From: Corylus avellana
Taxonomy: Eukaryota > Streptophyta > Magnoliopsida > Fagales > Betulaceae
Assembly (NCBI RefSeq): GCF_901000735.1
Contig: NC_081544.1
Span: 26,220,095-26,284,094, forward strand
DNA length: 64,000 nt
Direction: 5' to 3'
This document shows positions 10,441 to 49,491 of the stretch, piece after piece. A program made the position numbers and the translations under genes. The notes below the pieces were generated by a model. That model did no database searches. It was not told where the DNA came from and worked only from the letters and a program-made list of their open reading frames with translations. The number at the start of each line of letters is the position of its first letter. The first letter of the stretch is position 1.

Positions 10441-10441
10441 G

Positions 10442-10742: not shown

Positions 10743-10749
10743 TTTTCTT

Positions 10750-11203: not shown

Positions 11204-11211
11204 CTTCTCCC

Positions 11212-12571: not shown

Positions 12572-12579
12572 CTTCTCCC

Positions 12580-20779: not shown

Positions 20780-21229
20780 AAGTTATCTATTATTACATGC
20801 ACAAAGTATATGTAGAAAAAAAATTGTATTCTCTATCCTTTTCTAAATTTGAATTAAAAATATTAAAGTGGCTAAAAGTATTAATACATAATAATTTGAT
20901 TTGTATTATTTGTTTCCTTATTTGATTTTGACATTAATAATATTTAATATTGTGCATTAAATGCTTGAATTTAATGAAATTACATAAAAGGAAAATTATT
21001 GAAATATAATTAAATGTCTTTAATGAAGCTAATTTAATGACTGGTTCACTATTGAAAAACCAGTTCACTCTTAAAAAATCGGTTAAAAAATTATGCCTTA
21101 AAAAACCGGTTCACTCTAAAAAAACCGGTTAAAAAATTATGCCTTAAAAAATCGGTTTATCTTACGGTTCACGCCATATGTCGCAATATTAAGACACTTT
21201 TGAGAGTGATTCGGCTCATATATATATAT

Positions 21230-21985
21230 ATATATGGTTATTTTTACATTCTTTAATTTTTGGTTATTAATTAATAGTAGGTAACAAAATATATATGGTT
21301 ATTAATTAATAATAAAAACTATGCAATGCTTTTACTATATATGGTTATTATATATATGTGCTTAATTTGTATTCTTCAATTTATTTGGAAATAATTAATA
21401 GTAGGTAACAAAATATATATGGTTATTAATTAATAATAAAAACTATGCAATGCTTTCACTATATATGGTTATTATATATATGTGCTTAATTTGTATTCTT
21501 CAATTTATTTGGAAATAATTAATAGTAGGTAACAAAATATATATGGTTATTAATTAATAATAAAAATTATGCAATACTTTCACTATATATGGTTATTATA
21601 TATATCTGCTTTATATTCTTTAATTTATGGTTATTAATTAATAGTAGGTAACAATATATATATGGTTATTAATTAATAATAAAAATTATGCAATGCTTTT
21701 ACTATATATGATTATTATATATATGTGCTTAATTTGTATTCTTTAATTTATTTGGAAATAATTAATATTAGGTAACAAAGTATATATTGTTATCAATTAA
21801 TAATAAAAATTATGCAATGCTTTCACTATATATGGTTATTATATATATGTGCTTTATATTCTTTAATTTATGGTTATTAATTAATAGTAGGTAACAAAAT
21901 ATATATGGTTATTAATTAATAATAAAAATTATGCAAAACTTTTACTATATATGGTTATTATATATATGTGCTTAATGCAAAAAGT
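21230..21985. repeat. AT-rich minisatellite, 124/119-bp units, copy 1
   Basis: The word GTAACAAA recurs at 21281, 21405, 21529, 21648, 21772 and 21891. Spacings are 124, 124, 119, 124 and 119 bp, so two unit types mix. Each unit carries ATTAATTAATAATAAAAA and ACTATATATGGTTATTAT. No coding content. Confidence 0.9.
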
Positions 21986-23684: not shown

Positions 23685-26600
23685 CATTAAATCATATTAA
23701 ACTATTACGAAAATGTTATGACCAAGTGTTAAGAGGTGTCCGAATCGAGTCCCGTAAGGACCCTATTTCGACTCACCCGGGACCTGCTCGGACCCACCTA
23801 GCTCCTATCAGGACCCTGTCGGGATCAACCCGAGAACCTAGTAGGATCCGCCCTCTCAATAGGGACATTTTCGTAATTTAGTGTTTAATATGATTTTGCG
23901 TACACACCAAATATTGGAAAATGTTTTCTAGGAAAATGTTCTCTAAGAAATCATTTTCAAGGAAAATGTTAACTAAGAAATCATTTTCAAGGAAAATCAT
24001 TTTCGCCGAAAATATTTTCCGATGAGTCCCGATGGGGTCTCGGGCAAGTTTCGGGCAGGTCCCGGTCCAGTCCTATGCAAGTCCGGGGCGGGTCCCGGCC
24101 AGGCAAGTCTCTGTCAAGTCTTGGGCGGGTCTGGGTGAAGTCCCAGACAAGTCCCAGGCGGGTCCTAGGCAGGTCAAGACGGGGTCCTGGGCAAGTTTCG
24201 GACGGGTTTCGGTTAGGTCCCAGGTCCCAGGTCCCAGTCAAGTCTCGATCGGGTCCCGAGCAGGTCCTGGGCGAGTCCCAGTGAAATCCTGGGCGGGTCC
24301 TGGTGAGGTCGTGGGCGGGTCTTGGTAGGGTCCGTTGATTTGAGAATGAGATGCTTAAGTCAAAAAATAGTTTACGTTTTTCAAAACCGTAAACTATTTT
24401 TTGAAAATTAAAGAAGAATTTTCGATCAAAAAGAAAATATTTTTAATTAACCACTATTTTACGTTGCAGCAAATATCATAAAATAGCGAAAATCATTTTC
24501 TGAAAACTATTTTACGTGTAAGTAAACGGAGCCTTTGTTTCGGCTTTGCTTTTTAATTTCCTTTTTTGCTTTGTAGTTTTTTCACTTATAATTAATGCAA
24601 ATCATATGGGCACAGGTATAATTAAATTTGTTTTGGCTTATGTATGCAGTGTTTGAACGCATGGCGTATTATGAAATATCTGTTAAGAATATAATAGATA
24701 TTATTCTAAGGTTATTTACTTCCTTATGGATTCTAAGGTTTTTTAGTCAACTAGGTTTACATTTCCTTAGTCTACTAGGTTACTTGACTATCACTCATAG
24801 CCTCTCTATAAATAGAGGCATCTATAATACTTTTTAATAATTAGTCTCAATTTAATATACATATAAACATGGTATCAAAGCCATTAGCTTACACCAGTCA
24901 AACCAATGGTCCTGTGCGACGTCCACCTCCTCCTTCCATAGCCCACTGCCAGCCGAGCCTCGTGACAGAACCACCGTGTCGTCCCTGTTGGCCGTCGTCC
25001 ATCAACCCACCACTGCCGGCTCCATACAAATCCACTGCAATCTATCCACCTCATCTCCAGCAATCCAAAACCTTCGCACAATCATTGTGCTCTTCTCCTC
25101 CATTAGGTCGCGACCTAGAAACGCCAATCAGACCACACCACTCAGCCACGTCTTCTTCTCCTTTTTCTATATTTTACATGTTTTTCTATAAATAGCACCA
25201 TCAACAAACATCTCTACAAACACGCCTCCAGATTCATGCACCGAAGATCTAATTTGTTTAGCTCCATTGCACCTCCATCGGACGTTCCTGGAGTACCTTG
25301 TGCTGGTGTCGTTACCTCCATCGGTCGTTCTTGGACTACCTTGTGCCGGCGTCCTTTCCCTGTACTAGAGACCTTCCCTCCATCGGACGTTCCCAGACTA
25401 CCTTATGCCGGCGTCCTCTCCTCCATCGGGACTACCTTGTGCTGGCGTCTTTCCTTCAAGCCACCTTCGTTGCAGCACAAAACGCATATTTGCCAATATG
25501 TAAAGAGAGATAAGAAAGTAGAAGAGAATTGCCGGGCATGCAAGACAATAATGCAAGAAAAGAGGAAGAAAGAGAAAGTGGTATGTGTTTGCACATGATA
25601 GCCGAAAGGTGAGTTAAAAGTGAGAAGAGAAGTGATGGGAGTCGTCAGAAAGAAAAGAAAAGAAGTGAAAAAAAAAAAAAAAAAAAACCATCTTTTTGAC
25701 CTTGAGGTAATATCCAAAACTCAAGGTTCATTTCAACCCATAGTTTGACAATTTCAATATGGCCCATAGTTGGCCTATGCCGACAATTTTAAGAGCCACC
25801 GATGCTTCCTTCAGTTTCAATATGGCCCATAATTGGCCCATTTCGGCCAAACATTGCCGATGTTCAAGAGCCGCTGATTCTTCCTTCAGTTTCTTTTAGT
25901 GCTGTGATCAAGAAGCAAATTCAAGATTTCACAAGTTTTTACCTTGAGTTTGAAGGGGGATGTTAAGAATATAATAAGCATTATTCTAGGGTTATTTATT
26001 TTTTTATGGATTCTAGGGTTTCTTTAGTCAACTAGATTTACCTTTTCTTAGTCTACTAGGTTACTTGACTATCATTCATAGCTTCTCTATAAATAGATGC
26101 TTCTGTAATACTTTTTAATAATTAGTCTCAATTCAATGTAGTCCATTACATATTTTCGCTCTCTCTCTCTCCTTCTGCGATATATATATATATTTTTTGA
26201 AAACAATTTTACATGGAAGTAAACGGAGTCTTTTGTTTCGGTTTTGCCTTTTCTTTTCCTTTTTGCTTTGTAGTTTTTTCACTTATAATTAATGCAGATC
26301 ATATGGGCGCAGGTATAATTAAATTTGTTTTGGCTAATGTATGCAGTGTACGAAGTGTTTGAACGCATGGCGTATTATGGAATATCCTCCAATCTGATTT
26401 TGTATTTAACAAAGAAGCTCCATGAGGGCACCGTCTCCGCTGCTAACAATGTCACCAATTGGGTTGGAACCATTTGGTTGACTCCAATCTTGGGTGCCTA
26501 CGTGGCTGATGCTCATCTTGGCCGTTACTGGACCTTTATCATTGCCTGCATCATTTATTTCTTAGTACGTCTCAACCCCACTATATCATCACCACCAAAT

Positions 26601-27525
26601 ATATAATTAACAAGATTCATTATTTATTTTGAAAATCTTAAGAACACGCTAAAGAAAAAAGAATTAAGTCAAAAATCATATTGGCAGGGAATGTCACTGA
26701 TCACATTGGCCGTTTCACTCCCTAGCTTAAAACCGCCTGGCTGCTCAAAGACAGATATCGAGAACTGTAAGAAGGCCTCGACATTACAACTAGCCGTATT
26801 TTATGGTGCACTCTATACCTTAGCTGTCGGAACAGGTGGAACCAAGCCAAACATCTCCACCATGGGGGCAGACCAATTTGACGATTTTGACCCCAAAGAG
26901 AAGGCTCACAAGCTGTCCTTCTTCAATTGGTGGTATTTCAGCGTCTTCATCGGGACACTCTTTGCCAATACATTTCTTGTTTGGGTACAAGACAATGTAG
27001 GATGGACTTTAGGATATGCTCTTCCCACTCTTGGACTTGTAATATCCATTTCCATCTTCTTGGCAGGCACACCCTTCTATAGACACAAAGTGCCCGCAGG
27101 CAGCCCCTTCACGAGGATGGCAAAGGTCATTGTGGCTGCTATAAGGAAATGGAGGGTGCGTATCCCTAATAATCCCAAAGAGCTCTATGAGCTTGACTTG
27201 GAAGAGTATGCAAAGAAAGGAAAGTTCAGAATTGATTCCACACCCACCTTGAAGTATGTATATCAGCTATAAATTTACTTTTGTATCCTAATTATTGTCC
27301 TAATTTAAAGGCATTTTTGTCCTAATTTTACTTAATGTTGCATGCATGGAAGCAGGTTCCTTACCAAAGCATCTGTGAAAACAGGCTCGACTAATCCATG
27401 GATGTTGTGCTCAGTTACACAAGTAGAGGAGACAAAACAAATGTTACGAGTGATCCCAATCTGGGTTTCCATGTTTGTACCAAGCGCAATGATCGCCCAG
27501 ACCAATACTCTCTTCGTCAAGCAAG
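22864..27525 (+). CDS. NPF/PTR transporter B, exons 1-4, last exon missing
   Basis: Exons: 22864-22984, 26347-26564, 26688-27253, 27356-27525. Together they encode 358 codons ending at LFVKQG. The C-terminal exon, about 234 codons, is absent because copy 1 stops at the gap at 28633. Compared with B' there are only two amino-acid differences in the shared part (Val/Leu inside ExxER, Leu/Ser at the end of exon 2). The ExxER residues Glu43, Glu46 and Arg47 are intact. Intron 1 is 3.4 kb and carries a foldback element, an LTR element and a decoy exon 2. As drawn, it is a truncated gene. If the segment is a haplotig, the real allele is probably whole. Confidence 0.88.
23556..24532. mobile_element. 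Foldback/MITE element with GC-rich arms, copy 1
   Basis: Imperfect inverted ends GCTCCGTTTACTT (23556) and AAGTAAACGGAGC (ending 24532), extending inward through GGAAAATATTTTC-type words. The left arm is C-rich (about 23745-23850) and the right arm G-rich (24020-24337), and words in one are complementary to the other (GGACCTGCTCGGACCC against GGGTCCCGAGCAGGTCC). A (TA)n lies between. No target duplication could be fixed. Confidence 0.6.
24020..24337. repeat. GC-rich degenerate minisatellite, copy 1
   Basis: Short variable units of about 9-20 bp built on GGTCCCGGGCAAGTC/GGGCGGGTC words, sharply GC-rich in an AT-rich intron. Long open frames here on both strands are a by-product of the repeat. 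Confidence 0.8.
24499..24680 (+). pseudogene. Duplicated intron end plus decoy exon 2 of gene B
   Basis: Repeats the sequence at about 26199-26393: the end of the foldback element, the intron tail, the acceptor and the start of exon 2. The decoy exon (24650-24680) lacks nine bases that encode Tyr-Glu-Val, including the first Glu of ExxER. It is cut off by an LTR after GAAATATC. Using it would give a broken protein. The true exon 2 is at 26347. Confidence 0.75.
24681..26150 (+). mobile_element. Small non-autonomous Copia-like LTR element, copy 1
   Basis: Two 190-bp LTRs (24681-24870 and 25961-26150) begin TGTTAAGAATATAATA and end in ACA. The primer-binding site TGGTATCAAAGCC at 24871 matches initiator Met-tRNA. 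The polypurine tract GAAGGGGGA lies directly before the 3' LTR. The 1.1 kb interior has no gag or pol. Flanks are ATATC and TATTT, so no target duplication remains, consistent with later rearrangement. Confidence 0.85.
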
Positions 27526-27592
27526 GTACTGTTAAATTGTCACTTTTCTCATAAACTTAAACCGATAGAAAAAGGTAAATTTAATCACTTAA

Positions 27593-28632
27593 CATTACAA
27601 AAAAAAAAATTTTTGCTGACATGCGTTTTCTGACGTGTTAGGTGGTCTGACATGTCAGAAAATTTTCTTGACAGAGCATTTTGACGTGTTTCAGGCGTTA
27701 AAATTTTGGGTGTCAGAAACGAAAATTTTCTGACGTGTCAGATGTAACACGTCAGAATTTTCTGATGTGTCAAAATTGGCACGTCAGAAAAATTTTCTAA
27801 CGTGTCACTTTCTGACACGTCAAAAATTTAAAAATTATTAAAAAAAATAAATTTTATTTTTTAAAATTTTTTATGGAGTTTTTTTTCAATTAAAAAATTA
27901 TTAATTTAAATTATTTTGCAATTAAAATAATATATATATTTTTAATTCTTTTCACCACCGTACCTTTCTTTCTCCCCCAGCTCTCTCCCTGATCTCTTCT
28001 TTCCTCCATTTTCACTCACTCTCTTCTTTCCTCAATTTTCAAAAACCCAAACCCAAAAAATATTCAAAAAATCAAAAACCCAAATCAAAAAATCAACCTG
28101 AAAAATTAATAACCCAAACGTCAAACCCAACAAATCTTCAAAAACCAAAAAAATCTTCTTATCTTCTCTTCAAATTTTTTTTTTTCTTGTGCTTATCTTC
28201 TTCTTGATCTGCTTTTCTTCTAGCTCTGCTGCCGTGCAGAGAGATTGAGAGAGATCGAAGAGGGAGATTCAGAGAGATTGAGAGGAGAAGAGGGAGCTTT
28301 TACTACGTGAAGAGAGAAGAGGGAGAATGAGAGAGGGAAAGAAGATCTGGCGGAAAGAATAAATAATAAAAGAGGAAAAATTAAAGTTGAATGTCCCGCT
28401 ATTTTTTTTTTGACGTGCTAGACTAGTATGTCAGAAAAAAAAAATAGTGTATTCATACATGCAGATAAATAGTATTTTTGCGTGAAAAAAAGAGAGAAAG
28501 AAATAGAGCAGAAAACATAATTTTTTTTTTTAAAAAAAATGATGTTTTCTATTTCTATTTTTCTTTTTTACACAAAAACACTATTTATTAAAAAAACAAA
28601 AATTAGATGAAATATATATAACATAAATAAAC
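27593..28632. mobile_element. CACTA-like element in intron 4 of gene B, truncated by gap
   Basis: Begins CATTACAAAAAAA after a TAA and carries a cluster of TGACGTGTCA-type subterminal motifs at 27620-27835. It matches the first 1.04 kb of the complete element at 46839-48315. The rest is lost at the gap. Confidence 0.75.
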
Positions 28633-28732
28633 NNNNNNNNNNNNNNNNNNNNNNNNNNNNNNNNNNNNNNNNNNNNNNNNNNNNNNNNNNNNNNNNNNNN
28701 NNNNNNNNNNNNNNNNNNNNNNNNNNNNNNNN
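28633..28732. other. Assembly gap (100 N)
   Basis: Exactly 100 N, the usual default for unknown size. Both ends of the large duplication meet here. Confidence 0.99.
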
Positions 28733-28854
28733 TTAATTAATGCAATGTTTGTTAAAAAAAGAAAAAAGAAAAAAAGAAAAAAAAGAGGTGATTTTTGTGC
28801 TTTTACGAAACTTTTGTTTGGTAAAGGTTTTAGAGGATATATTTTTTTTAGTAG

Positions 28855-29155
28855 AAAATGATTGATGAGATGGAGTTGAGACTTCGTCGAGAAGTTTGAC
28901 GACATCTCGCCAGAGGAGCCGGTCGAGGATAAATCCAGGTACCTGAGACTCCACAACACGTCGTCAGGGACTTTCCCAGATCGAGAGGAGGTTGTGAGTG
29001 AAGTTGAGGACTTGGAGATTGGTGAGGTTGAAAATGGAGGGGATTGTACTTTGTGGGTTGTTGAATCTCTGGTTATTCAGGTGGATTTTGAGTGGTTTTG
29101 TTTCGTTTATGATGTTTTTCTTATTAGAGTTACTTCGTAACCGTTTGTTAGACAC
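28855..29155 (-). pseudogene. LRR receptor-like fragment, copy 2
   Basis: Duplicate of the relic at 10442-10742 with the same frameshift and only one or two base changes. Confidence 0.65.
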
Positions 29156-29624
29156 TTTTCTTCTCCTCCGATCCCCCTTTGTTAATGTAGTATATAGAGA
29201 TTGATCATTTGGTATAAAATTTTATATTTTTTTTAATTGAAAAGTGACAAAATTTTGTGCAAAACTTTGATTATTGTCTCTAATCGGTTACCCACAAATC
29301 AACCCAACTAAACTCATCAACAAATTAATCAAACACCAAAAGGAAAGACCCACACCCGCCAAAAGGTCAATACAACCCATCAAATCTTTGTACGTCTACA
29401 ACAGCATGGCCTCCAAGGTCAATGAGATCGTCCATCGTGCCTGCCAAAAGGCCACGTTGGTTAGTACAACCATCAAACGGCCCGGATCGATCATCATCCT
29501 TGTCAAGGCCGGCTCATCCGTGATCAAACCATCGTCCCCCTCTCCTCCCACATGGACCCTGGGGACCCCGTCACCGACGGCGACAACGAGTGGTATGAGA
29601 ACACAGAATGGTATGCCTTCTCCC

Positions 29625-30984
29625 CAGGGCCCCCAATTTAATAGAGCCCAAAAAAAATATTTTTGAGTTAAAAAAAAAAAAAATTTTAAAAATTATTTTG
29701 GACCAAAACAAAAAATTGAAGGCCCAAATTTTTTTTAATATGGCCTAAATTTTTTTTTTATCAAAATTTAAGGCCTCAATTTAATAAGACCCTAATTAAT
29801 AAGCTCATTATAAATTTTAAAAATAATTCAAAAAATAAATTAAAAAAGGACAAAGCATTAAAGCCTTGTACATCATTACACCAATTCCTTCGAGCTCTTG
29901 ACGCTATAGTACACGTCTACATCATTCACTCATCCTCTTGGCCTCTTTCTAGAAATTTTTTGTTTTTGATGAGAAAATATATACGTTAGAAATAAAATAT
30001 TACCATTTATTTTTTATTATTTAGCCATCTAGGGAAAGCCGGCCAAGAGCCAAAAATATAAACTGCTGTCAACCATGAATATTTTAAATATCAGTCTCTA
30101 TATTTGCCACTTTACCTCTCCTCTTTGTTTGCTCTTTTTTGAGTTTTTCTTCTCTCCCTATTTCATCATTTTCTCTTCCTCTTTGACTCCGAGTGACTAA
30201 GTCTCTTGTCTTATCTCCAAGAACTACTTTATAATTCCTTTGCTAAATCAGGTTTTATTGTTCTATTTTTGTCATTTATTTTATTATAGTCATAATTTTT
30301 TTATTTTTTATTTTTATTTTATTTTATAAATCGTGTTTGTTTAATTTGTTAGTATTTTTAATTAAACATGTCTACTAGAAAATATGCATTTGGATATGAA
30401 AAACTTAAAAAAAAAAAAAGTAGACAAATTGATTGAATCTCAAAGAGGAGCTCTAAATAAATTTGTTATTAGCAATAAACAAAATATTAAGGATAATTTA
30501 GGTGAAAAACTCATAAATGAATAAAAAACTCATCAAAAAGAATTAGAAGATAATGAAAATGTTATTGATGTATCTAAATCTATTGCTACAAATATTTATG
30601 ACCTTGGCCAATGGAAAAATATTGATGCAAAATTAAGGGATTTGTTAGTAGAAAATGGTCCAATAAGATACAATATTATAGATTTTCCTAAAGATGAGAA
30701 CTCTAGGCATTTTTCTAATACATATTATATATGAAAATTATCAAATGGGGAGCAACATAATAAAAAATGGCTAGTTTGTTCAAAAGATGTAGATAGAGTA
30801 TTTTATTTTTGTTGCAAGTTGTTTAATTCAAAACCTAATAGAATGCAACTAGCTGATGAAGGGATTGGTTGATAAAAAATTGAATCTAAAAAAAAAAAAA
30901 AAATTGTTACTTAAGAAAAAAATAAAAAATTAGGCCAAATTTCAAAGTTTTGCCTAAAGCCCCAAAATATGTTGAGCCGGCCTG
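29625..30984 (+). mobile_element. hAT transposon relic, copy 2
   Basis: Same 1360-bp length, termini and CTTCTCCC target duplication (29617-29624 and 30985-30992) as copy 1. Confidence 0.88.
30368..30872 (+). pseudogene. hAT transposase N-terminal fragment, copy 2
   Basis: Duplicate of the fragment at 11955-12459 with the same internal stops, showing that it was already dead before the two copies diverged. Confidence 0.75.
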
Positions 30985-30992
30985 CTTCTCCC

Positions 30993-32185
30993 TCCCTCTC
31001 TCTCTCCCTCTCCTTAGCTGTGTGACGAGGTGTTAAGGAAAGGTGGTAGAAGTGAAGCTAGGGTTTTTCTTTTGTTAATTATTTTTAGTGGATGCCTTTT
31101 TTTATTTCTTAATTAGCGTTTTTATGCGTTAAAAAGATAAAAATAATTTTAAATATTTTGTGTTTATTAATTGGCAATATTGTGGTGTATAATATTTTGT
31201 TGTATGGTGTATATTAGCACACTCGTCACCTTTATTTATTTATTTATTATTATTATTATTATTATTTTTGTGTGTGTGAACAAAGACACTACTCAAAAAT
31301 TTTGATAAAATTAACTCACAAAACGTAATTTAACAAACTCTCCATTAATTTAACGTTTATTGGCGCCACATATTTCGTTAACGTCTCGGACTCACGTACA
31401 TGTCCTTCATTCACTTCTCCCACATTCTCCCTCTTTCTTGCGTTTTGTCGCCAAGGCAAATGTCGGTAACATTATAAACCTCTTGCTCTATCTTCCCATT
31501 CCCCTTTAAAAAAAAAAAAAATACATACTCATCACTTTTACAATCATTTCTTTAAACTTTAAAAATTGTCAATTTATGATTATTTTCTTTAAGAATTTTA
31601 CAATGTCAATCATCCCGTTAAACGGTTGATGAACAAAATTAATTCTTAAAATACCATTAAAATATTTATAAAATTACAAAAACACCTTAAATTTGGACAT
31701 GAGAACTGTTTTAGAGATTTCACTTCCTTCATTGAATTTGCATGGAAGAGTTGATATTGTAAACTTCTGAAAGATAATAGTTTTAAATTGACATTTTTTT
31801 AAATTTAAGGGTACTTACAAAAATAATGAAAAATTAAAGATGGTAAGTGAATTTTTTTTTCTTAAAAGAAATGAAGAGGGGAAAAAGTTTCAGGCGTTCG
31901 ATCTATGTCTCCAAAATAGTTCAAAACAGAAGCTAAAAAAATAAAAAATAAAAATAAAAATAAAATTTTGTGAGGGCATATCCGTCATTTGAATGCGAAA
32001 CTTAATTGCAGGTCAAATTAAGCTGCAACCCAAGACGCGGACTATAGTGCTGACAAAAAATGTTGTCCCGAGTCCCTGTTGGTGTTGGGTATACAAAGAC
32101 ACCAAGAAGTAGACGAAGTCCTGAAACAGAAGAAAAAGGTGAGGCTGCAGCGTCACTCCTAAGTCTTCAAAGCAAAACAAGCTGT
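30993..32185. other. 5' flank of NPF gene A'
   Basis: Counterpart of 12580-13758, with single-base changes and microsatellite length differences. No gene is seen. Confidence 0.5.
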
Positions 32186-35100
32186 ATGGCTGGTCAGGAA
32201 GAAGCACTTGATGAATACACGCAGGATGGGAGTGTGGATCTCAAAGGAAACCCCGTCCGGAGATCCAACACTGGTGGATGGAGAGCTTGCTCCTTCATCG
32301 TCGGTAAACCCTCTCTCTCTCTCTCTCTCTCTCCCTCTGTCTCTCTCTCTTTCTCTCTCTATGAAGCTTTAGATTTGCTTAATTACCCACAACCCCACTT
32401 CGTAAATCATCCCCTTTAGGATACAAGTACTGTTAAACATCTTGAAACTTGGGAGCCAAATCTACAAGGGTGCTCAACGTTTAAGTAGTAACAAGCATCA
32501 TTCATAGCCGACTTATTCTATCCATCTGAGGAAGACATATATGATCACTTTGGATGGAGTAAATTGTTATTGCAAGTATATATATCAGTTTAATTACACG
32601 AAATTTATGTTTATATTCATAGCTGTGCTGTGGATGGAAGCAGTTTTCTTACTTAATTTGAGACAATTTGGAAGCGATTCAGGCCTGAACCATAATTTTC
32701 TTCAAGCTCAGTTTTCTAAATATTTTAATATTCTTCTCACGTGAAACACTGTAATCTTTGTCTCTCTCTCTCTCTCTCTCTCCAATTATCCAAACTTGAA
32801 ATGAATTGACATAAACGGATTACCGCAGGCAGTAAGCCAAAGTAGTATTTGATCATCATACGGCCGCGGAAATTGTTGACTGTGTTTTTTCCAACTATTT
32901 CCTTCTTTTGGCTTCTGCAGTGTACGAGGTTTTCGAACGCATGGCATATTATGGGATATCCTCCAATCTGATTCTATATTTAACGAAGAAGCTCCACCAG
33001 GGCACCGTCACCTCTGCCAACCATGTCACCAATTGGGTCGGAACCATTTGGATCACTCCAATCTTGGGCGCTTACATTGCCGATGCTCATCTCGGCCGTT
33101 ACTGGACGTTTGTCATTGCGTCTGTCATTTATATCTCGGTACTTCTCCAAGCACTATATCATCCCCATCAATTATTTTTAATTTATGTCGTGTTCTTTGT
33201 CTTATTTATTGGATAAACGATTATTGGAGGAGTAATAGTCACTTGATCGAATATTTCTTTTTAACATTTTTCAATAACATATATTATATATGTCCATGAA
33301 TGCATGTATAATTACTACTTGCTCACTTAAACAGAAACCGTAACACCTACTTAATTAATTTATATGTTTGACCAAGTCAACTATGACAAAAGTAGTCTTA
33401 TTTTTCTCAGCTTTTTAGAGTGAGTAATAACGTTTGACTTGGAAATTATGTTTTGTAAGGCAGCAATTAAAACTGATCGGATAAGAAAATGATAGAATTA
33501 TTCATAAAAAAGAAAAAGAAAAAGAAAAGGATAGATCGAACGTGGTATTCATATATAATGCAAGCTAGTAGTTTATACATACCGGTGGCTAGGGGACCAA
33601 GGTATTTATATCACAATTTCAATGTTGCCTGGTCCTGTACGTCTAGCTAGGTCCAAATTACGGAAAAGGGTCTTTTATCATAGGTATCTTGAGTCAATTT
33701 TTTTTTTTTTTTCATAAATATTTATTTTCTCGATCTCAAAGTATTATATATTTTCTTTAGGGTGATATGATTATAAAAAAGAAAAAAGAAAAATTATTTT
33801 GAAATATCTTTTAGTTTATATTAAAAAAAGACACGATTTAAATAAAAATTATGTGTTTATTAAAAAAAGATGATGATAAAATAAGAAATTAAAGAAATAA
33901 AAACTTTTATAATTCTTAGGAAGTGGCTGTGTAATTTGAGACTAGCTAGTCAATGATAAAGGACTTATTAATTACTATATTTCTTGAGGATAGCGACATG
34001 CGAATAGCCAGACCAGAAGGGATCAAAAAGAAAGCTAGCTCGCTGAGTTGGTTGGAATCTAATAATAAAAAAAAAAAACAGGACAAATGGGTTTTTGTTA
34101 TCTAATTACAAGAGATTTAATTAGTGACAAACATTAAGGTGGGTCTTGACCCCTTGGCTTAATTTTAGGTCCGACCTTGGTGGTAGTCATGAACATACAC
34201 CAGGATTGAAAGCCTGTATATTCCTGTTATGATTGTCACACCAACACATAATATTTTTTAAGCAACTACTGAAATTTTTTTATTATATCTTATTACATTA
34301 TCTTCTCACTGTCGAACGACCAACCGCAACATGCTCAGAAAAAAAAAAAGAAAAAAAAAGGCAAAGAACAACCAACCGCAATTACGCAATTAGGAACAAG
34401 AAAATACTAGTATGTTTTACTATGTTGGCATGCAGGGAATGTCATTACTAACATTGACGGTTTCACTCCCGAGTTTAAGACCGCCTAGCTGCTCACAGAC
34501 AAATATGGAGAACTGTAAGAATGCTTCAACATTACAGCTAGCAGTGTTTTATGGTGCACTCTATACCTTAGCCGTCGGAACAGGTGGAACCAAGCCAAAC
34601 ATCTCCACCATCGGAGCAGACCAATTTGATGATTTCAACCCCAAGGAGAAGGCTCACAAGCTGTCCTTCTTCAATTGGTGGTTTTTCAGCATCTTCCTTG
34701 GGATATTCTTTGCGAATACAGTACTTGTTTGGATACAAGACAACATAGGATGGACGTTAGGATATGCGCTTCCGACTCTTGGACTTGCAATATCCATTGC
34801 CATCTTCTTGGCAGGCACGCCCTTTTATAGACATAAGGTGCCCGCGGGCAGCCCCTTCACGAGGATGGCGAAGGTAATAGTGGCTGCTATAAGGAAATGG
34901 AGGGTGCGTATTCCCAATGACCCCAAAGAGCTCTATGAGCTTGACTTGGAAGAGTATGCAAAGAAAGGAAAGTTCAGAATTGATTTCACACCCACATTGA
35001 GGTACATAATATATATACATATGTTATTTACAATGTTGAAAAATTAGAGGCATTTGTGCTCAGAAGAAAACTACACTTAACCCTCATAACTATCAATCGT

Positions 35101-36107
35101 TTTGTGATGTTCTTTCAGTTACCATTTCATTAGGGTTTTCTGTTAAATATTAATAACTGATGAGAGCAATATGAACTACCATAGTTGATTAGCCTTCTCA
35201 AGTCTTAATCATGTTGTGTGGAAGCAGGTTCCTTACCAAAGCGTCTGTGAAAACAGGCTCAACTAATGAGTGGATGTTGTGCTCAGTTACACAAGTAGAA
35301 GAGACTAAACAAATGGTACGAATGATCCCAATATGGGTTGCCACGGTTGTACCGAGCATAATGATCGCCCAGATCAATACTCTTTTTGTTAAGCAAGGCG
35401 CCACACTTGATAGAGGCATTGGGAGCTTCAATATTCCCCCGGCAAGTTTAGCAGCATTTGTAACCATATCCTTGCTTGTCTCTGTCATGCTCTATGATCG
35501 GTTTTTGGTTAAGATTATGCGAAGGTGGACTAAAAACCCTAGAGGGATCACTCTTCTTCAAAGAATGGGAGTTGGGCTTTTTATGCACATTTTGATTATG
35601 ATAATTGCATCTCTAACAGAGAGATATAGACTGAGAGTGGCCAAGGAACATGGGTTGGTTGAACATGGAGGACAAGTTCCCTTAACCATATTTATTCTAC
35701 TTCCACAATTCGTGCTTATGGGAATCGCAGATGCATTTTTAGATGTTGCAAAGATTGAGTTCTTCTATGACCAGGCGCCAGAAAACATGAAAAGTCTTGG
35801 GACTTCCTATTCCATGACCACTTTTGGAGCTGGAAACTTTCTGAGTAGTTTTCTTCTTTCCACAGTTTCTCACATCACCAAGAAGCATGGTCACCGAGGA
35901 TGGATTCTAAACAACCTTAATGCTTCCCATCTTGATTATTATTATGCATTTTTCGTGATACTAAACTTCCTCAATTTCATCTTCTTCTTGATTGTGATTA
36001 AGTTCTACGTGTATAAGGCTGAAGTTTCGGATTCAATAAAAGTGCTGACAGATGAATTGAAGGGGATGACAGTAAAGGTATCTAACCAAGAGGAATCCAG
36101 GAGGTAG
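32186..36107 (+). CDS. NPF/PTR family transporter A' (copy or allele of A)
   Basis: Exons: 32186-32303, 32921-33138, 34436-35001, 35228-36107. All exon lengths equal those of A, giving 593 residues. Exons 1 and 2 encode identical protein. Exons 3 and 4 carry 12 amino-acid changes by my reading, such as Gly/Ala in GYGLPT and Cys/Ser in VVPCIM, with no frameshift. ExxER (Glu42, Glu45, Arg46) is intact. Several changes in A' match gene C (GYALPT, AGTPF, PPASL), so A' looks slightly more ancestral. Whether this is a second locus or the other allele depends on the nature of the duplication. Confidence 0.92.
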
Positions 36108-36774
36108 CTAGGCAGGGGACTTACTGATGGGAAACAACGAAAGGCCATACAGAAATCAAATATGAAATTCTTTGAGATGGTAAAGGCTTTCTTTATGGAT
36201 AGGCATTTCATAGCTTTGGGTTTAAGATAGTGCATCTTTGATTTTGCTTTACTGCAATGAGGAGAATATGATGTTTATACTTTGGTAACTGGTAAGGAAC
36301 GCAATATAGTTGTATAGGTGTGTGAATGCCAAGAAGAGTTTGTCTTGGACTTCTCGATCTGTAATATAAATTTACGTACTATTTTATAATTCTCAAGATC
36401 TTTAGCTATGATGATTTTTCACAATAAATTAATAATACGTACTTAAAATAATAAAAAAAACCCATAATCCATAGCGATAAAAAACTTTGCATCTTGATCC
36501 GAAAGCGTAAACACAAAAAAAAAAGACAATTTATGTGGAGCGAAAACACCAAAAAAATAAATTTTCTCACATACTAATGATGTCGTAGTTGTGACCCTAT
36601 CCGTACATGGTGCACCGATCATCTATAAACCATTGGATCACCTATAAACTATTGGATCTTATAAGGCCAAATAAAAAAGTAAATCTTTTTGACCATAAGG
36701 TCAAGCTAATATAAAAACATGTGCTTGCCATTCGTACATTATAATCTACATTATATGTTCAATTATTATAAACC
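36108..36774. other. 3' UTR and flank of gene A'
   Basis: Closely matches 17767-18445 of copy 1; divergence begins exactly at the CACTAC terminus at 36775. No gene is seen. Confidence 0.5.
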
Positions 36775-36893
36775 CACTACAAAAAAATAAGTATTTTCTG
36801 ACGTGGCAAACAGTGCATATTTTTTGCCACGTCAGCATTTTCTGACGTGGCAAAAAATGCCACGTCAGAAAATATTTTCTGACGCGCTAAAAA

Positions 36894-39861: not shown

Positions 39862-40289
39862 TTTTTTATATTCTTTAATTTATGGTTATTAATTAATAAT
39901 AAAAACTATGCAATGCTTTTACTATATATGGTTATTATATATATGTGCTTAATTTGTATTCTTCAATTTATTTGGAAATAATTAATAGTAGGTAACAAAA
40001 TATATATGATTGTTAATTAATAATAAAAATTATGCAATGCTTTCACTATAAATGGTTATTATATATATGTGCTTAATTTGTATTCTTCAATTTATTTGGA
40101 AATAATTAATAGTAGGTAACAAAATATATATGGTTATTAATTAATAATAAAAATTATGCAATGCTTTCACTATATATGGTTATTATATATGTCTGTTTTA
40201 TATTCTTTAATTTATGGTTATTAATTAATAGTACGTAACAAAATATATATGGTTATTAATTAATAATAAAAACTATGCAATGCTTTTAC

Positions 40290-40323
<34 letters not shown>

Positions 40324-40673
40324 CGCGCTTAATTTGTATTCTTCAATTTATTTGGAAATAATTAATAGTAGGTAACAAAATATATATAGTTATTAATTAA
40401 TAATAAAAATTATGCAATGCTTTTACTAATTACTGTATATGGTTATTATATATATGTGCTTAATTTGTATTCTTTAATTTATTTGGAAATAATTAATATT
40501 AGGTAACAAAATATATATTGTTATTAATTAATAATAAAAATTATGCAATGCTTTCACTATATATGGTTATTATATATATGTGCTTTATATTCTTTAATTT
40601 ATGGTTATTAATTAATTAATAGTAGGTAACAAAATATATATGGTTATTAATTAATAATAAAAATTATGCAATG

Positions 40674-40724
<51 letters not shown>

Positions 40725-41650: not shown

Positions 41651-44600
41651 ATGGCTCTGGTGGGAGAAGCAGTTGGTGATGAATACACGCAGGATGGGAC
41701 AGTGAACCTGAAAGGGAAACCAGTCCGTAGATCCAAGAGTGGCGGATGGACTGCTTGCTGGTTTATTGTTGGTATGACTCTTTATTTATTCTCTATCTCT
41801 CTCTAAGGGATATTCCAGCCTTAATTAAGGATGGATTTGATAGCCAGGATCCTTGAATAGATTCAAGGCGTTGATCGAACATGTATTGGTAATTTGGTGA
41901 GGTGACTAACAATATATTCTTAAATAGATTTATATCTCTAGCAATTAAGAGATGACTTTTATAAGGTTCATTTATCCGAACAAATTTTGGGTTGTTTGAG
42001 CACTTGCACGAACATGTGGGTTTCATAAGGGTTGTCTTACAATTGTCTGCCTAGATTGTTAGCAATTCGGACATGTATTTGCTAGTAGGGATGCAACTAG
42101 AATTTATTTATTTATTTTCTGTGGGGAACTAAGCCCACATAAATAAATAAGCATGCATATTTTTTGAGGAAAATAGTAGTGTAGTATATATCATTATAAA
42201 AATGAGAAATATTTTTTTTTTTTCAAAATTCAAAAACTATTAGATTATATTGAAAACGAATCCTAATGATTCACTGGGTAGGATGGCGGACGCGGGTTCA
42301 AGTGCCTGAAGAGCATATCTACCGAAGCGATCGGTATAAACATCAACAACTCCAAATTGGATCAGTAGCACAGTTAATCAAGTGTGGGATGATTTTTGTT
42401 CTATGGGTCAAATATTGACCAAAAAATCATTTGACTGGTCGTCTAAAACTGGTACTCTAAGCGGTCTAAACTATTGTAAAAGAAGATTTTTTTGCTCAAT
42501 TTACTACGACGTAAAATGGTTTGCATCGGAAAATATTTCAGGAAAGTCATTTTTTAAATCGAGTCCCGTAAGGACCCTATTTCAACTCACCCGGGACCTG
42601 CCCGGACCCGCCTAGCCCCTATCAGGACCCTGTCGGGATCAACCCAAGACCATAGTAGGACCCGCCCTCTCAATAGGGACATTTTCGTAATTTAATGTTT
42701 AATATGATTTTGCATACAGACCAAATATCGGAAATGTTTGCAGGAAAATGTTTTTTAATAAATCATTTTCAAGGAAAATGTTAACTAAGAAATCATTTTC
42801 AAGGAAAATCTTTTTTGCCGAAAATATTTTCGGACGAGTCCCGGCGGCGTCCCAGGCAGGTCTCGTCGGCGTCTCGGGCAAGTTTCGGGCGGGTTCTGGG
42901 CAGGTCCCAGTTGGGTCCTGGGCAAGTCTCGGGCAGGTCTCAATCAAGTCCCTAGCGGGTCCCGGCCAGGCAAGTCTCGGTCAAGTCTTGGGCGGGTCTC
43001 GGTGAAGTCCCAGACAAGTCTCGGGCAGGTCCTGGGCAGGTCATGACGGGGTCCCAGGAAAGTTTTGGGCGGGTTCCGGTTAGGTCCCGGGTCTCAGTTA
43101 AGTCCCCGATTGGGTCTCGAGTAGGTCCTGGGCGAGTCCCGGTGAAGTCCTGGGCCGGTCCTGGCGAGGTCGTGGGCGGGTCTTGGCAGGGTTCGTCGAT
43201 TTGAGAATGAGATGCTTAAGTCAAAAAATTGTTTATGTTTTTCAAAACCGTAAACTATTTTTTGAAAATTAAAGAAGAATTTTCGGTCAAAACGAAAATA
43301 TTTTTAGTTAACCACTATTTTATGTCCCAACTAATACCATAAAATACGAAAATTATTTTTTGAAAACTATTTTACGTGTAAGTAAACAGAGCCTTTGTTT
43401 CGGCTTTGCTTTTTAGTTTCCTTTTTGCTTTGTAGTTTTTTCACTTATAATTAATGCAGATCATATGGGCGCAGGTATAATTAAATTTGTTTTGGCTTAT
43501 GTATGTAGTGTTTGAACGCATGGCGTATTATGGAATATCTGTTAAGAATATAATAGATATTATTCTAAGGTGATTTACTTCCTTATAGATTCTAGGGTTT
43601 TTTTAGGCAACTAGGTTTACTTTTCCTTAGTCTACTAGGTTACTTGACTATCATTCATAGCCTCTCTATAAATAGAGGCATCTGTAATACTTTTTAATAA
43701 TTAGTCTCAATTTAATATATATATATTTTAACATGGTATCAGAGCCATTGGCTTACGCCAGTCAAACCAATGGTCCTGTGCGACATCCACTACCTCCTTC
43801 CACAGCCCATTGCCAGTCGAGCCTCGTGATAGAACCACCGCGTCGTCCCTGCTGACTGTCATCCATCAACCCACCACTGCTGGCTCCATACAAATCCACT
43901 GCAATCTTTCCACCTCATCTCCAGCAATCCAGAACCTTCGCACCATCACTGTGCTCTTCTCCTCCATCAGGTCGCGACCCAGAAACGCCAATTAGACCGC
44001 ACCGCTCAGCCACATCTTCTTCTCCTTTTTCTATATTTTACATGTTTTTTTATAAATAGCACCATCAACAAACATCTCCACAAACACCCCTCCAGATTCA
44101 TGCATCGAAGATCCAATTTGTTCAGCTCCATCGCACCTCCATTGGATGTTCCCGGAGTACCTTGTGCCGGCGTCCTTACCTCCATTGGTCGTTCCCGGAC
44201 TACCTTGTGCCGACGTCCTTTCCCTATACCAGAGACCTTCCCTCCATCGGACGTTCCCGGACTACCTTATGCCGGCGTCCTCTCCTCCATCGGGACTACC
44301 TTGTGCTGGCGTCCTTCCTTCAAGCCACCTCCGTTGTAGCACAAAACACATATTTGCCAATATGTAAAGAGAGATAAGAAAGTAGAAGAGAATTGCCGGG
44401 CATGCAAGAAAATNNNNNNNNNNNNNNNNNNNNNNNNNNNNNNNNNNNNNNNNNNNNNNNNNNNNNNNNNNNNNNNNNNNNNNNNNNTTCTATTTTCTCT
44501 CTGATTCTTCAGGTACAGTTTTTCTACAAGTGCAAACGAATTTTTTTTTTCTCTATGCCGTCTCCCTTCTTTGTACCTTTTTTATTTTATTTTATTTATT

Positions 44601-47600
44601 TATTTATTTTTTTTTTAATTATGTTTTTTTTATTTCTTTTGATTATCTGTACCGTTTCTCTCTGATTTTCTTCTCCCCGTTTCTCTGCTTTTTTTTTTTT
44701 TTTTNNNNNNNNNNNNNNNNNNNNTTTATTTATTCCCTTTTTTTTTTTTATTTTATTCTGTTTCTCCGTATCTCTTTTTTCTCAGTTATTTTTTATTTAT
44801 TTATTTTAATCGGAGAAATAGAATCTGTAAGGTTTTTATAAAATACAAATATATAATTTGTTTTTTTTTATTTCTTTTGATTCTCTGTACATTCTCCAAC
44901 TATATTTTTTTGATTTCAAGATTGAGTTTGATTCTGTTTTCTTCAACTATATATNNNNNNNNNNNNNNNNNNNNNNNNNNNNNNNNNNNNNNNNNNNNNN
45001 NNNNNNNNNNNNNNNNNNNNNNNNNNNNNNNNNNNNNNNNNNNNNNNNNNNNNNNNNNNNNNNNNNNNNNNNNNNNNNNNNNNNNNNNNNNNNNNNNNNN
45101 NNNNTTTTAAAAAAAGAATGAAAGTCCTTAATAATATAAATTGTATTTGTATTATAAGGGTATTTTTGAAAATTTGATCACAATATGATTCCATTCACCA
45201 ACATATTGCATTGTACCAAACGAAGGAATATGATTAACTAGTCTATTTCAGAATTACAACTAAACAAAGGAATATGAATAGTTAATCTATTCCACACTCT
45301 TCTATTCCCAGTAGTAGCTAATCATTTTTCAATGGACTAGATATTCTGCGAACCAAACGAGACCTTAGTCTCAATTCAATGTAGTCCATTACATATTTTC
45401 GCTCTCTCTCTCTCCTTCTTTTGCTATATATATATATTTTATGAAAATAATTTTACACGGAAGTAAACGGAGCCTTTGTTTCTGCTTTGCTTTTTCTTTT
45501 CCTTTTTGCTTTATAGTTTTTTCATCACTTATAATTAATGCATATCATATGGGCGCAGGTATAATTAAATTTGTTTTGGCTTATGTATGCAGTGTACGAG
45601 CTGTTTGAACGCATGGCGTATTATGGAATATCCTCCAATCTGATTTTGTATTTAACAAAGAAGCTCCATGAGGGCACCGTCTCCGCTGCCAACAATGTCA
45701 CCAATTGGGTTGGAACCATTTGGTTGACTCCAATCTTGGGTGCTTACGTGGCTGATGCTCATCTTGGCCGTTACTGGACCTTTATCATTGCCTGCATCAT
45801 TTATTTCTCAGTACGTCTCAACCCCACTATATCATCACCACCAAATATATAATTAACAAGATTCATTATTTATTTTGAAAATCTTAAGAACACGCTAAAG
45901 AAAAAAGAATTAAGTCAAAAATCATATTGGCAGGGAATGTCACTGATCACATTGGCCGTTTCACTCCCTAGCTTAAAACCGCCTGGCTGCTCAAAGACAG
46001 ATATCGAGAACTGTAAGAAGGCCTCGACATTACAACTAGCCGTATTTTATGGTGCACTCTATACCTTAGCTGTCGGAACAGGTGGAACCAAGCCAAACAT
46101 CTCCACCATGGGGGCAGACCAATTTGACGATTTTGACCCCAAAGAGAAGGCTCACAAGCTGTCCTTCTTCAATTGGTGGTATTTCAGCGTCTTCATCGGG
46201 ACACTCTTTGCCAATACATTTCTTGTTTGGGTACAAGACAATGTAGGATGGACTTTAGGATATGCTCTTCCCACTCTTGGACTTGTAATATCCATTTCCA
46301 TCTTCTTGGCAGGCACACCCTTCTATAGACACAAAGTGCCCGCAGGCAGCCCCTTCACGAGGATGGCAAAGGTCATTGTGGCTGCTATAAGGAAATGGAG
46401 GGTGCGTATCCCTAATAATCCCAAAGAGCTCTATGAGCTTGACTTGGAAGAGTATGCAAAGAAAGGAAAGTTCAGAATTGATTCCACACCCACCTTGAAG
46501 TATGTATATCAGCTATAAATTTACTTTTGTATCCTAATTATTGTCCTAATTTAAAGGCATTTTTGTCCTAATTTTACTTAATGTTGCATGCATGGAAGCA
46601 GGTTCCTTACCAAAGCATCTGTGAAAACAGGCTCGACTAATCCATGGATGTTGTGCTCAGTTACACAAGTAGAGGAGACAAAACAAATGTTACGAGTGAT
46701 CCCAATCTGGGTTTCCATGTTTGTACCAAGCGCAATGATCGCCCAGACCAATACTCTCTTCGTCAAGCAAGGTACTGTTAAATTGTCACTTTTCTCATAA
46801 ACTTAAACCGATAGAAAAAGGTAAATTTAATCACTTAACATTACAAAAAAAAAAATTTTTGCTGACATGCGTTTTCTGACGTGTTAGGTGGTCTGACATG
46901 TCAGAAAATTTTCTTGACAGAGCATTTTGACGTGTTTCAGGCGTTAAAATTTTGGGTGTCAGAAACGAAAATTTTCTGACGTGTCAGATGTAACACGTTA
47001 GAATTTTCTGATGTGTCAAAATTGGCACGTCAGAAAAATTTTCTAACGTGTCACTTTCTGACACGTCAAAAATTTAAAAATTATTAAAAAAAATAAATTT
47101 TATTTTTTAAAATTTTTTTTCTGGATTTTTTTTTTCAATTAAAAAATTATTAATTTAAATTATTTTGCAATTAAAATAATATATATATTTTTAATTCTTT
47201 TCACCACCGTACCTTTCTCCCCCAGCTCTCTCCCTGATCTCTTCTTTCCTCCATTTTCACTCACTCTCTTCTTTCCTCAATTTTCAAAAACCCAAACCCA
47301 AAAAATATTCAAAAAATCAAAAACCCAAATCAAAAAATCAACCTGAAAAATTAATAACCCAAACGTCAAACCCAACAAATCTTCAAAAACCAAAAAAATC
47401 TTCTTATCTTCTCTTCTTCTTCTTCTCTTCAAAATTTTTTTTTTTCTTGTGCTTATCTTCTTCTTGATCTGCTTTTCTTCTAGGTCTGCTGCCGTGCAGA
47501 GAGATTGAGAGAGAAGAGGGAGATTCAGAGAGATTGAGAGGAGAAGAGGGAGCTTTTACTACGTGAAGAGAGAAGAGGGAGAATGAGAGAGGGAAAGAAG

Positions 47601-49491
47601 ATCTGGCGGAAAGAATAAATAATAAAAGAGGAAAAATTAAAGTTGAATGTCCCGCTATTTTTTTTTTTGACGTGCTAGACTAGTATGTCAGAAAAAAAAA
47701 ATAGTGTATTCATACATGCAGATAAATAGTATTTTTGCGTGAAAAAAAGAGAGAAAGAAATAGAGCAGAAAACATAATTTTTTTTTTTAAAAAAAAATTA
47801 TGTTTTCTATTTCTATTTTTCTTTTTTACACAAAAACACTATTTATTAAAAAAACAAAAATTAGATGAAATATATATAATATAAATAAACCTGATATTAA
47901 AAGAAGAAAAAGAAATTATTGACGTGTCAAAGTGACACGTCAAGAAATCAAAGTGACAAGTCAATAAATATTGACGTGTCAAAGTGACACGTCAATAAAT
48001 AATGACGTGCCAAAATGACACGTCAATATTTCTTGACGTGTCTAATTTTAGTACGTCAATAAATATTTAAATATTAAGTTATTTAAATAAATTTTTTAAA
48101 AATTAAATTGAATTTAAATTTTCTGACGTGTCAAATATTGACACGTCAAGAAATCCTAACGTGTTGAATGTAACGTCAATAAATATTGACGTGACATATT
48201 CAACACATCAAAAAAAAAATTTGTTAACGTGCCACTTTTGGCATGTCAATAATTACTGACATGGCAAATTTGGTTACTGTTTGTCACGTCAAAAACAATC
48301 CGGTTTTTTGTAGTGTAATCATTACTTTAACACTAACCCACGTTTGTATCGAGAGCAGTGATCGCCCAGAATAATACTCTTTTTGTCAAGCAAGGTAGTA
48401 TTAAATTACGATCTATAAGCTTAAGCTGATAGGAAGAGGTAAATTTAGTCACTTAATCATTACTTTAATACCAACCCACGTTTGTACCAAGCGCAATGAT
48501 CGCCCAAACCAATACTCTCTTTGGCAAGCAATGTACTGTTAAATTACCACTTTTCTCATAAGTTTAAGCCGATAGGAAGAAATAAATTTAATCACTTAAT
48601 CATTAGTTTAACATTTCTCCTCAAATGTAGACACGTGGAATATTTAATTTAAATTGGAGTAAATTGATAGAGTCAAGGTTCGATCATAGTACTTTTAGCT
48701 CTAATACTATGTTAAATTACCATTTTTTCTATATGCTTAAACTGATAGGAAGAGATAAATTTAATCCCTTAATTATTACTTTAGCAGGTACTACTCTTGA
48801 TAGAAGCTTTATTGGGAACTTCAAAATCCCCCCGGCAAGTTTATCTGCATTTGTAACCATATCCATGCTTGTCTCTGTCTTGCTCTATGATCGATTTTTT
48901 GTCAAGATTATGCAAAGGTGGACTAAAAACCCTAGAGGGATCACTATCCTTCAAAGAATGGGGATTGGGCTTTTTATCTACATTATTATGATGATAATTG
49001 CATCTCTAACAGAGAGATATAGACTGAGGGTGGCCAAGGAACATGGATTGGTTGAAAATGGAGGACAAGTTCCTCTAACCATATTTATTTTACTCCCTCA
49101 ATTTGCACTTGTGGGAATCGGAGAGGCATTTTTAGATGCTGCAAAGATGGAGTTCTGCTACGACCAGGCGCCGGAAAACATGAAAAGTCTTGGGAGTTCG
49201 TATTCCTTGACCTCTTTTGGAGTGGGAAACTTTCTGAGTAGTTTCCTTCTTTCAACAGTTTCTCACATAACAATGAAGCATGGTCACCAAGGATGGATTC
49301 AAAACAACCTCAATGCTTCTCATCTTGATTATTATTATGCATTTTTTGTCGTACTAAACTTCCTCAACTTTGTCTTCTTCTTGATTGTGGTCAAGTTCTA
49401 TACGTATAAGGCTGAAATTTCGGATTCAATAAAAGTGCTGACAGAAGAATTGAGGAATATGGCAGCCGTGGTTTCTAATCCGGAGGAATGA
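41651..49491 (+). CDS. NPF/PTR transporter B', complete, with a TRIM-derived extra intron
   Basis: Exons: 41651-41771, 45593-45810, 45934-46499, 46602-46771, 48788-49491. They total 1779 nt and 592 residues, with a start MALVGEA and a stop after NPEE. ExxER is Glu43, Glu46, Arg47, and GTGGTKPNIS and YDQAPE motifs are present. A, A' and C have four exons; here the fourth is split between the Gln codon and the Gly-Thr-Thr of KQGTTLDR by a 2016-bp intron (46772-48787). That intron is a TRIM insertion with secondary growth. Donor G|GTAC and acceptor TAGCAG| restore the frame exactly. The C-terminal part has changes in usually conserved positions (FCYDQAPE for FFYDQAPE, GEAFLDAA for ADAFLDVA). Intron 1 contains a foldback element and a broken LTR element. 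It appears able to encode full-length protein if the new intron splices. Confidence 0.9.
42494..43392. mobile_element. Foldback/MITE element, copy 2
   Basis: Counterpart of 23556-24532 with the (TA)n-containing centre deleted. The GC-rich minisatellite arm is at about 42835-43195. Terminal words have drifted (GCTCAATTTACT and AGTAAACAGAGC). Confidence 0.6.
43509..43539 (+). pseudogene. Decoy exon 2 fragment of gene B'
   Basis: Same nine-base deletion as the copy 1 decoy. Its acceptor reads TAG rather than CAG, and it is cut by the LTR start at 43540. Confidence 0.7.
43540..45396 (+). mobile_element. LTR element, copy 2, disrupted and gapped
   Basis: 5' LTR 43540-43733, primer-binding site TGGTATCAGAGCC at 43734 (closer to the canonical sequence than in copy 1). 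The interior matches copy 1 to 44413. It is then interrupted by gaps at 44414-44487, 44705-44724 and 44955-45104 and by T-rich sequence. A MITE-like end with AACCAAACGAGACC precedes the last 28 bases of the 3' LTR (45369-45396). Confidence 0.7.
44414..45104. other. Three assembly gaps with T-rich islands
   Basis: N runs of 74, 20 and 150 separated by homopolymer T-rich sequence. ORFs called across these are artefacts. Confidence 0.95.
46839..48315. mobile_element. Complete CACTA-like non-autonomous element, TAA target duplication
   Basis: 1477 bp, starting CATTACAAAAA and ending TTTTTTGTAGTG, so the 5' end has one mismatch from CACTAC. TAA at 46836-46838 and 48316-48318. The unfilled target is seen in two sister LTR copies (near 48450 and 48590). 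Both subterminal regions carry many direct and inverted TGACGTGTCA words (46877-47070 and 47920-48290). The interior is CT/GA-rich and non-coding. Confidence 0.85.
48333..48536 (+). repeat. Duplicated exon-4 tails within the B' intron
   Basis: Two 66-bp pieces (48333-48398 and 48471-48536) copy the end of exon 4 (encoding FVPSAMIAQTNTLFVKQG) and are separated by an LTR copy of 72 bp (48399-48470). The first keeps a usable-looking donor (AAGGTAGTA). The second has lost it (CAATGTAC). Both have in-frame damage or no 3' splice site before them, so they are probably skipped. Confidence 0.85.

Follow-up and report, generated by a model that had tools for sequence, protein, structure and literature searches.

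Probable origin of a scarless intron in a hazelnut NPF transporter gene from a TRIM retrotransposon, with apparent Introner-like recurrence of its LTR family

Introners are repeat families that make many introns in bulk (Gozashti et al. 2022, PMC9860276). As far as the available text of that paper goes, none is reported in land plants, and across animals and land plants their known carriers are two groups of animals; the term LTR (long terminal repeat) was not found in that text. Introns made by transposons through target duplication are likewise a known kind, according to the accessible part of Yenerall and Zhou (2012, PMC3443670). Neither a plant Introner nor an LTR-derived intron family was found in the literature searched. 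Here we describe a 64,000-nucleotide stretch of chromosome 4 of hazelnut, Corylus avellana (the window), which sits inside a tandem array of NPF5.2-like transporter genes (A, B, A', B' and C inside the window, in this order; D and E outside it). The coding sequence of B' is split by a terminal-repeat retrotransposon in miniature (TRIM). Taking the evidence together, it is probable that this TRIM made a scarless intron in B' and that its LTR family has acted repeatedly, in the manner of an Introner, in other hazelnut genes.

Joining the exons of B' gives an open coding sequence of 592 amino acids with GT-AG at every intron. The predicted protein has a PTR2 domain (PF00854, 338.5 bits, Pfam) and its best protein matches are named NPF5.2-like, which together identify the host as an NPF/POT transporter gene. 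The initial annotation had proposed that the left copy of the target duplication serves as donor, whereas the final A of the LTR and the first G of the right copy complete the acceptor. Both sites can be read directly, as CAAG|GTACTG and TTTAGCAG|GTAC (the bar marks the junction). The splice sites are as claimed, and the exact intron is 46772-48787. Its excision restores the intact frame and joins an intact downstream exon, in agreement with the proposal that no coding sequence was lost. The features are listed below by window position. Exons and intron were placed by the openness of the joined coding sequence (exon 1 also by tblastn with exon 1 of relatives), LTRs, exon-4 copies and the nested element by repeat alignment (the latter also by its relatives elsewhere in the genome), and the target duplications by direct reading.

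41651..41771, plus strand, B' exon 1
45593..45810, plus strand, B' exon 2
45934..46499, plus strand, B' exon 3
46602..46771, plus strand, B' exon 4, ending CAAG
46771..46775, plus strand, left target duplication GGTAC, holding the G|GT donor
46772..48787, plus strand, proposed intron 4, 2016 nt, GT...AG, whose splicing we infer
46776..46838, minus strand, LTRa, left piece
46839..48315, strand not assigned, nested CACTA-like element, CATTACAAAA...TTTTTTGTAGTG, with duplication TAA
48319..48332, minus strand, LTRa, right piece
48342..48398, plus strand, dup_b, tandem copy of the exon-4 end, terminating GGTAG
48399..48470, minus strand, LTRb
48480..48536, plus strand, dup_c, tandem copy of the exon-4 end, terminating TGTAC
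48537..48613, minus strand, LTRc, 77 bp, the 3' LTR in the TRIM's own orientation
48614..48709, minus strand, interior of the TRIM, holding the purine tract (48614-48622) and the primer site (48698-48709)
48710..48786, minus strand, LTRd, 77 bp, the 5' LTR, window end TTTAGCA
48787..48791, plus strand, right target duplication GGTAC, its G completing the acceptor CAG
48788..49491, plus strand, B' exon 5 including the stop codon
26346..28632, plus strand, exons 2-4 of copy B together with part of the TRIM intron, truncated at the contig end

Short direct LTRs with TG...CA ends, a primer site, a purine tract and a 5-bp duplication place the element among the TRIMs. The minus-strand primer site TAGTATTAGAGC adjoins LTRd and is identical at 10 of 12 positions to the reference motif TGGTATCAGAGC; in 29 other TRIM copies 8-12 of the 12 positions match TGGTATCAGAGC. 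The purine tract adjoins LTRc (minus strand of 48614-48622, by eye). An exact 5-bp target duplication was found in 12 of the 29 other copies, several of which are copies of one another. The initial annotation was right about the flanking GGTAC, the 77-bp LTRs, the primer site and the purine tract, but the intron is not one simple TRIM: it contains four copies of the LTR, two displaced copies of the end of exon 4 and one nested CACTA-like element. Two tandem units (48342-48470 and 48480-48613) each consist of approximately 57 nt of exon-4 end and one LTR. The exon-GGTAC-LTR junction is already present in them, which places the TRIM insertion before the copying. LTRa is cut in two by the 1.48-kb nested element, whose CACTA-like ends and 3-bp duplication TAA are those of the CACTA type. 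This element (46839-48315) has numerous relatives in the genome, a query overlapping its left end having given 127 matches from 40 scored candidates. The proposed change of the LTR end from TTTAACA to TTTAGCA, which yields a second AG three bases upstream of the acceptor, is borne out by the other TRIM copies, since 22 of 29 end in TTTAACA and none in TTTAGCA (several again being copies of one another); use of this second AG would insert one alanine.

Relatives without the intron are abundant, as 97 of 128 NPF matches in the hazelnut genome run unbroken across the B' intron site. The remaining matches comprise exon 5 of B', the ends of exon 4 in B and B', a match that begins at residue 24 and 27 that begin past residue 30. 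The peptide rebuilt at the join, KQGTTLDR, had been thought to recur in A and C; instead it is shared with D and E, while C has KQGTTLER and A and A' have KQGATLDR. By a crude count against the splice-site consensus, the new donor has 6/9 consensus letters and the gene's own donors 5-6/9. The RefSeq model P0121, which covers copy B, ends its fourth exon exactly at the donor provided by the TRIM duplication. P0121 (window 26346-29137) crosses a contig gap into an unrelated frame on the next contig, at 28881, and this continuation is apparently an assembly or annotation artefact.

LTR elements commonly terminate in CA. Because of this ending, a target duplication beginning with GGT supplies a donor (G|GT) and an acceptor (CA plus G|GT) at once. 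A genome search for GGT plus LTR start returned 45 hits in the B' orientation and 17 for the same pattern backwards; given the latter, part of the 45 is chance. Of 41 sites read (L073-L112 and L126), 14 have an LTR-type right end before GGT and flanks that, when joined, keep an open, coding-like frame, judged over short stretches (L111 has 11 codons past the join, and the frame of L075 stops after 31 codons). A Pfam domain above cut-off crosses the join in eight of these loci, namely kinase (L074), MatE (L075), UDPGT (L084), P450 (L095), PMEI (L099), Transferase (L104), SDR (L110) and GRAS (L112). The domain crossing the join of L111 is slightly under cut-off (25.9 vs 26.2), L073 and L109 have a Pfam match on one side only, and no Pfam match was found in the joined flanks of L078, L093 and L101. 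The opposite orientation gave 15 GGT hits against 30 backwards; among the 13 sites read one is clear, a subtilase gene (L114) that contains a solo LTR of 77 bp and has a domain across the join. The 15 candidate introns are 78-393 nt long, and the lengths of 12 are no multiple of three. Judged by gene structure, one family is present as putative introns in many unrelated genes, and LTR-end positions point to more, with splice sites drawn from element and target duplication (G|GT on the left, CA plus G on the right), as in Introners. The arrangement in B' is, judged from the sequence, more than chance, given its perfect 5-bp duplication, TG...CA ends, in-frame conserved coding sequence on both sides and recurrence in other genes. 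In two additional places a coding left flank runs to GGT and an LTR start with no convincing right end within the DNA read, GRAS-coding by Pfam at L086 and UGT-like by eye at L115; both are possible further exonic insertions.

A frame open for 45 codons on either side of the join was found in 12 of 40 sites of the GGT set and in one of 29 TRIM copies chosen by similarity (Fisher p=0.005), although the scans differ, the control covering both strands with shorter flanks and the GGT set one strand with the right end found. One of the 12 doubly open sites, L089, is without a recognisable domain. By eye, no coding-like flanks were seen among the 29 control copies. Duplications starting with GG are distributed as GGT 45, GGA 23, GGG 11 and GGC 10 (GGT vs GGA p=0.01), and GGTA makes up 30 of the 45 GGT sites. 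No exonic insertion of the TRIM family was found among the four GGA loci read (of 44 non-GGT hits), one of the four (L129) being something other than an LTR of the family. Acceptor-end composition was rejected as an argument, as exonic copies are slightly T-richer (p=0.027) but also G-richer (p=0.018) than others.

Most exonic copies end in TTTATATTNTAACA or a near variant, while the canonical end is CATTACTTTAACA. Ends of the TTTATATTNTAACA type followed by GNT occur at 93 genome places in 57-60 position clusters, with GGT in 77, GAT in 8, GTT in 5 and GCT in 3 (six for the pattern backwards). Canonical ends followed by GNT are followed by GGT in 6 of 20 (Fisher p=7.5e-6 against 77 of 93). 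With any NNT, TTTATATTNTAACA ends number 290, and among approximately 100 listed many precede CTT or CAT, which are probably inner LTR ends. The GGT bias of the subfamily would be explained equally well by old copies surviving only as introns or by a subfamily fit for splicing.

Tandem SDR and UGT paralogues share introns of this kind, which their relatives lack. With the protein of L110 as query, four SDR genes lying in tandem on C10 prove to be interrupted at one and the same codon, three of them at a listed subfamily LTR end, whereas 31 of 44 SDR matches run across the site and 5 of 44 stop short of it. With the UGT protein of L084, the matches listed at C1:50162242, 50191046 and 50251869 start inside a subfamily LTR end, within which, by coordinates, the single TAA in these three matches falls. 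The match at C1:50267786 starts near another LTR end and carries an unexplained TAG. For the three split UGT genes other than L084 the matches in view cover the right half. Six tandem neighbours of 79-83% identity run across the site among the matches listed. Close relatives without the intron, a hallmark of Introners, are present in the hazelnut genome for the NPF, SDR and UGT paralogues alike. As inheritance through gene duplication with open frames would otherwise be hard to explain, the pattern argues for removal of these introns. On C8, the coding sequences of two NPF genes (748200-748977 and 753433-754210) are interrupted close to query residue 150, and an LTR end at 748720 lies beside the first.

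These observations suggest the following course of events. As the sequence itself shows, a TRIM integrated at GGTAC in the B' coding sequence and duplicated it; the left GGTAC gives the donor G|GT, and the terminal CA of the LTR with the G of the right copy the acceptor CAG|GT. The spliceosome would excise the element and leave the protein unchanged. The intron grew later, through two tandem duplications that each took in exon end and LTR, and through the CACTA-like insertion, the order following from the nesting. The same LTR family, mostly as TTTATATTNTAACA copies, appears to have entered exons at GGT repeatedly, mostly in the B' orientation, and would act like an Introner, with the 5' splice site coming from the target duplication and the 3' splice site carried by the LTR. 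It also seems likely, though a little less so than the combined reading given at the outset, that this TRIM LTR subfamily is a flowering-plant Introner lineage in which an exonic landing at GGTNN gives a ready scarless intron, with dozens in hazelnut (up to the 57-60 clusters, counted on one subfamily end), some inherited by tandem copies.

Selection on B' persists in relaxed form. On the B' branch, synonymous divergence (dS) is 0.115 for exons 2-4 and 0.188 for exon 5, and the ratio of nonsynonymous to synonymous rates (dN/dS) is below 1 in both, with 0.34 for exons 2-4 (p=0.0008; vs background p=0.16) and 0.39 for exon 5 (p=0.0017; vs background p=0.17). Neutral evolution of exon 5 was rejected at p=0.0017, although the many changes at conserved columns speak the other way. 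By our reading, since the tandem copying the exon-4 end has gained 3 synonymous and 0 replacement changes, and the copies approximately six replacements among eight changes, all small numbers. Several results weigh against a spliced and recurrent TRIM intron. With all exons pooled, the B' branch has an elevated dN/dS (0.39 vs 0.22, p=0.02), and conserved exon-5 columns are changed in 12 of 117 cases in B' against 13 of 471 in four paralogues (p=0.001; exons 2-4 of B' have 8 of 189, p=0.055 vs exon 5). The B' protein is absent among the best 120 matches of each of three protein searches in which A, A', C and D are present and copy B is represented by P0121; this is weak evidence, since gene E is likewise without its own protein there. 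P0121 may be an ab initio model. Finally, the six of 77 subfamily GGT sites that were read (L073, L075, L084, L099, L101 and L110, all within the 14) were reached via their left ends and so are not a random sample of the 77.

The changed columns, the raised whole-gene dN/dS and the missing protein would fit a TRIM that broke B' and left a slowly decaying pseudogene, whose clean splice sites are a little-used by-product of the duplication. We regard this as unlikely for B', where frame, stop and splice sites are intact despite an old insertion (LTR distances to LTRd 0.175-0.243, the LTRa values being approximate because its edges are slightly off) and dN/dS is below 1 in both parts of the gene. 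Simulated neutral survival of the exon-5 frame, run with two assumed indel rates, is 0.08-0.22 at 0.03 substitutions per site, and falls to 0.016-0.08 at 0.05, 0.002-0.026 at 0.075 and 0-0.005 at 0.10. B' probably remains a coding gene on which selection is weaker than on the neighbouring genes. The GGT excess might instead reflect an integration target preference, with exonic insertions simply breaking genes, and the control against this covers few loci read; we nevertheless consider it improbable, as none of the 12 exact duplications among the 29 TRIM copies begins with GGT, canonical ends precede GGT in a minority only, GGT is rarer in the opposite orientation (15 vs 30 reversed) than in the B' orientation (45 vs 17 reversed), and SDR and UGT genes split in this way have been copied in tandem with frames still open. 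A third possibility is that an exonic AGGT segment was duplicated in tandem, a recognised route according to the available text of PMC3443670, and so produced the B' intron, the TRIM being incidental. It would account for the two exon-4-end copies inside the intron. This is very hard to credit, however, since the copied units already hold the GGTAC-LTR junction, which makes the TRIM earlier, and since GGTAC exactly flanks LTRa and LTRd.

A and A' each match one RefSeq protein of Corylus avellana at 99.3%; the exons of D match a third protein at 97-100%. B is a near copy of B' and ends where its contig ends; contig joins lie at 28633, 36894 and 62053, the first two with N runs. The A and A' stretches are 96.4% identical from end to end (10320-18447 vs 28733-36893) and are probably either unpurged haplotypes or a recent segmental duplication. 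With the N runs, this identity and the end of B at a contig end, A/B and A'/B' may be two haplotypes. An assembly error was dismissed as the origin of the insertion, as such haplotype pairs would not create a TRIM. At 43400-43760 the beginning of B' exon 2 is present a second time in incomplete form, interrupted by an apparently Copia-type LTR after which comes TGGTATCAGAGCC (by eye). Tandem repeats with a period of approximately 124 bp lie upstream of B and B', at 21225-21976 and 39878-40707.

The origin of new introns is a long-standing question, and a plant LTR family with a three-letter target rule would, if true, bring it into a crop tree. The same reading predicts that, in any genome, persisting exonic insertions of TG...CA elements should be enriched for GGT duplications, most strongly in the orientation in which the LTR end resembles a 3' splice site. 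For annotation it would mean that repeat masking can hide LTR-made introns and that the host genes can be called broken.

An intron made by Ds in maize was reportedly described by Giroux et al. in 1994; like the hazelnut introns it would be made by a transposable element, but one of another class and in a single case. The following comparisons hold for the accessible parts of the papers cited. The Doc1053 intron of Drosophila (PMC3296678) is also made by a transposable element, again of another class and in a single case, and its join adds five amino acids. Closer in kind is the copia element ONSEN in Arabidopsis (PMC12112155), where cDNA showed an LTR element in an exon to have been taken out as an intron; that was one exonic case in an experimental burst, given without its exact junction and duplication in that text, whereas the hazelnut insertions are old and natural, lie in many genes and are predicted to be spliced. 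TRIM and SMART elements (PMC4717578, PMC3281118) share the small LTRs, TG...CA-type ends, 5-bp duplications and enrichment in genes, and sometimes alter gene structure, but recurrent scarless intron creation is not described in those texts. In the AGGT proto-splice model (PMC3443670) a duplicated target likewise places AG|GT at either end, so that the join is scarless; it needs AGGT in the duplication, while in hazelnut GGT suffices and the LTR supplies the A. That paper asks whether any transposon preferentially makes introns, and the hazelnut TRIM family seems to do so. With Introners (PMC9860276) it would share the creation of many introns by one repeat family and splicing that is length-neutral; those families are mostly DNA-transposon-like, whereas in hazelnut the source is an LTR element and the rule is GGT plus CA. 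What appears to be new in hazelnut is the LTR/TRIM source, the land-plant host and a GGT rule that follows from the CA terminus.

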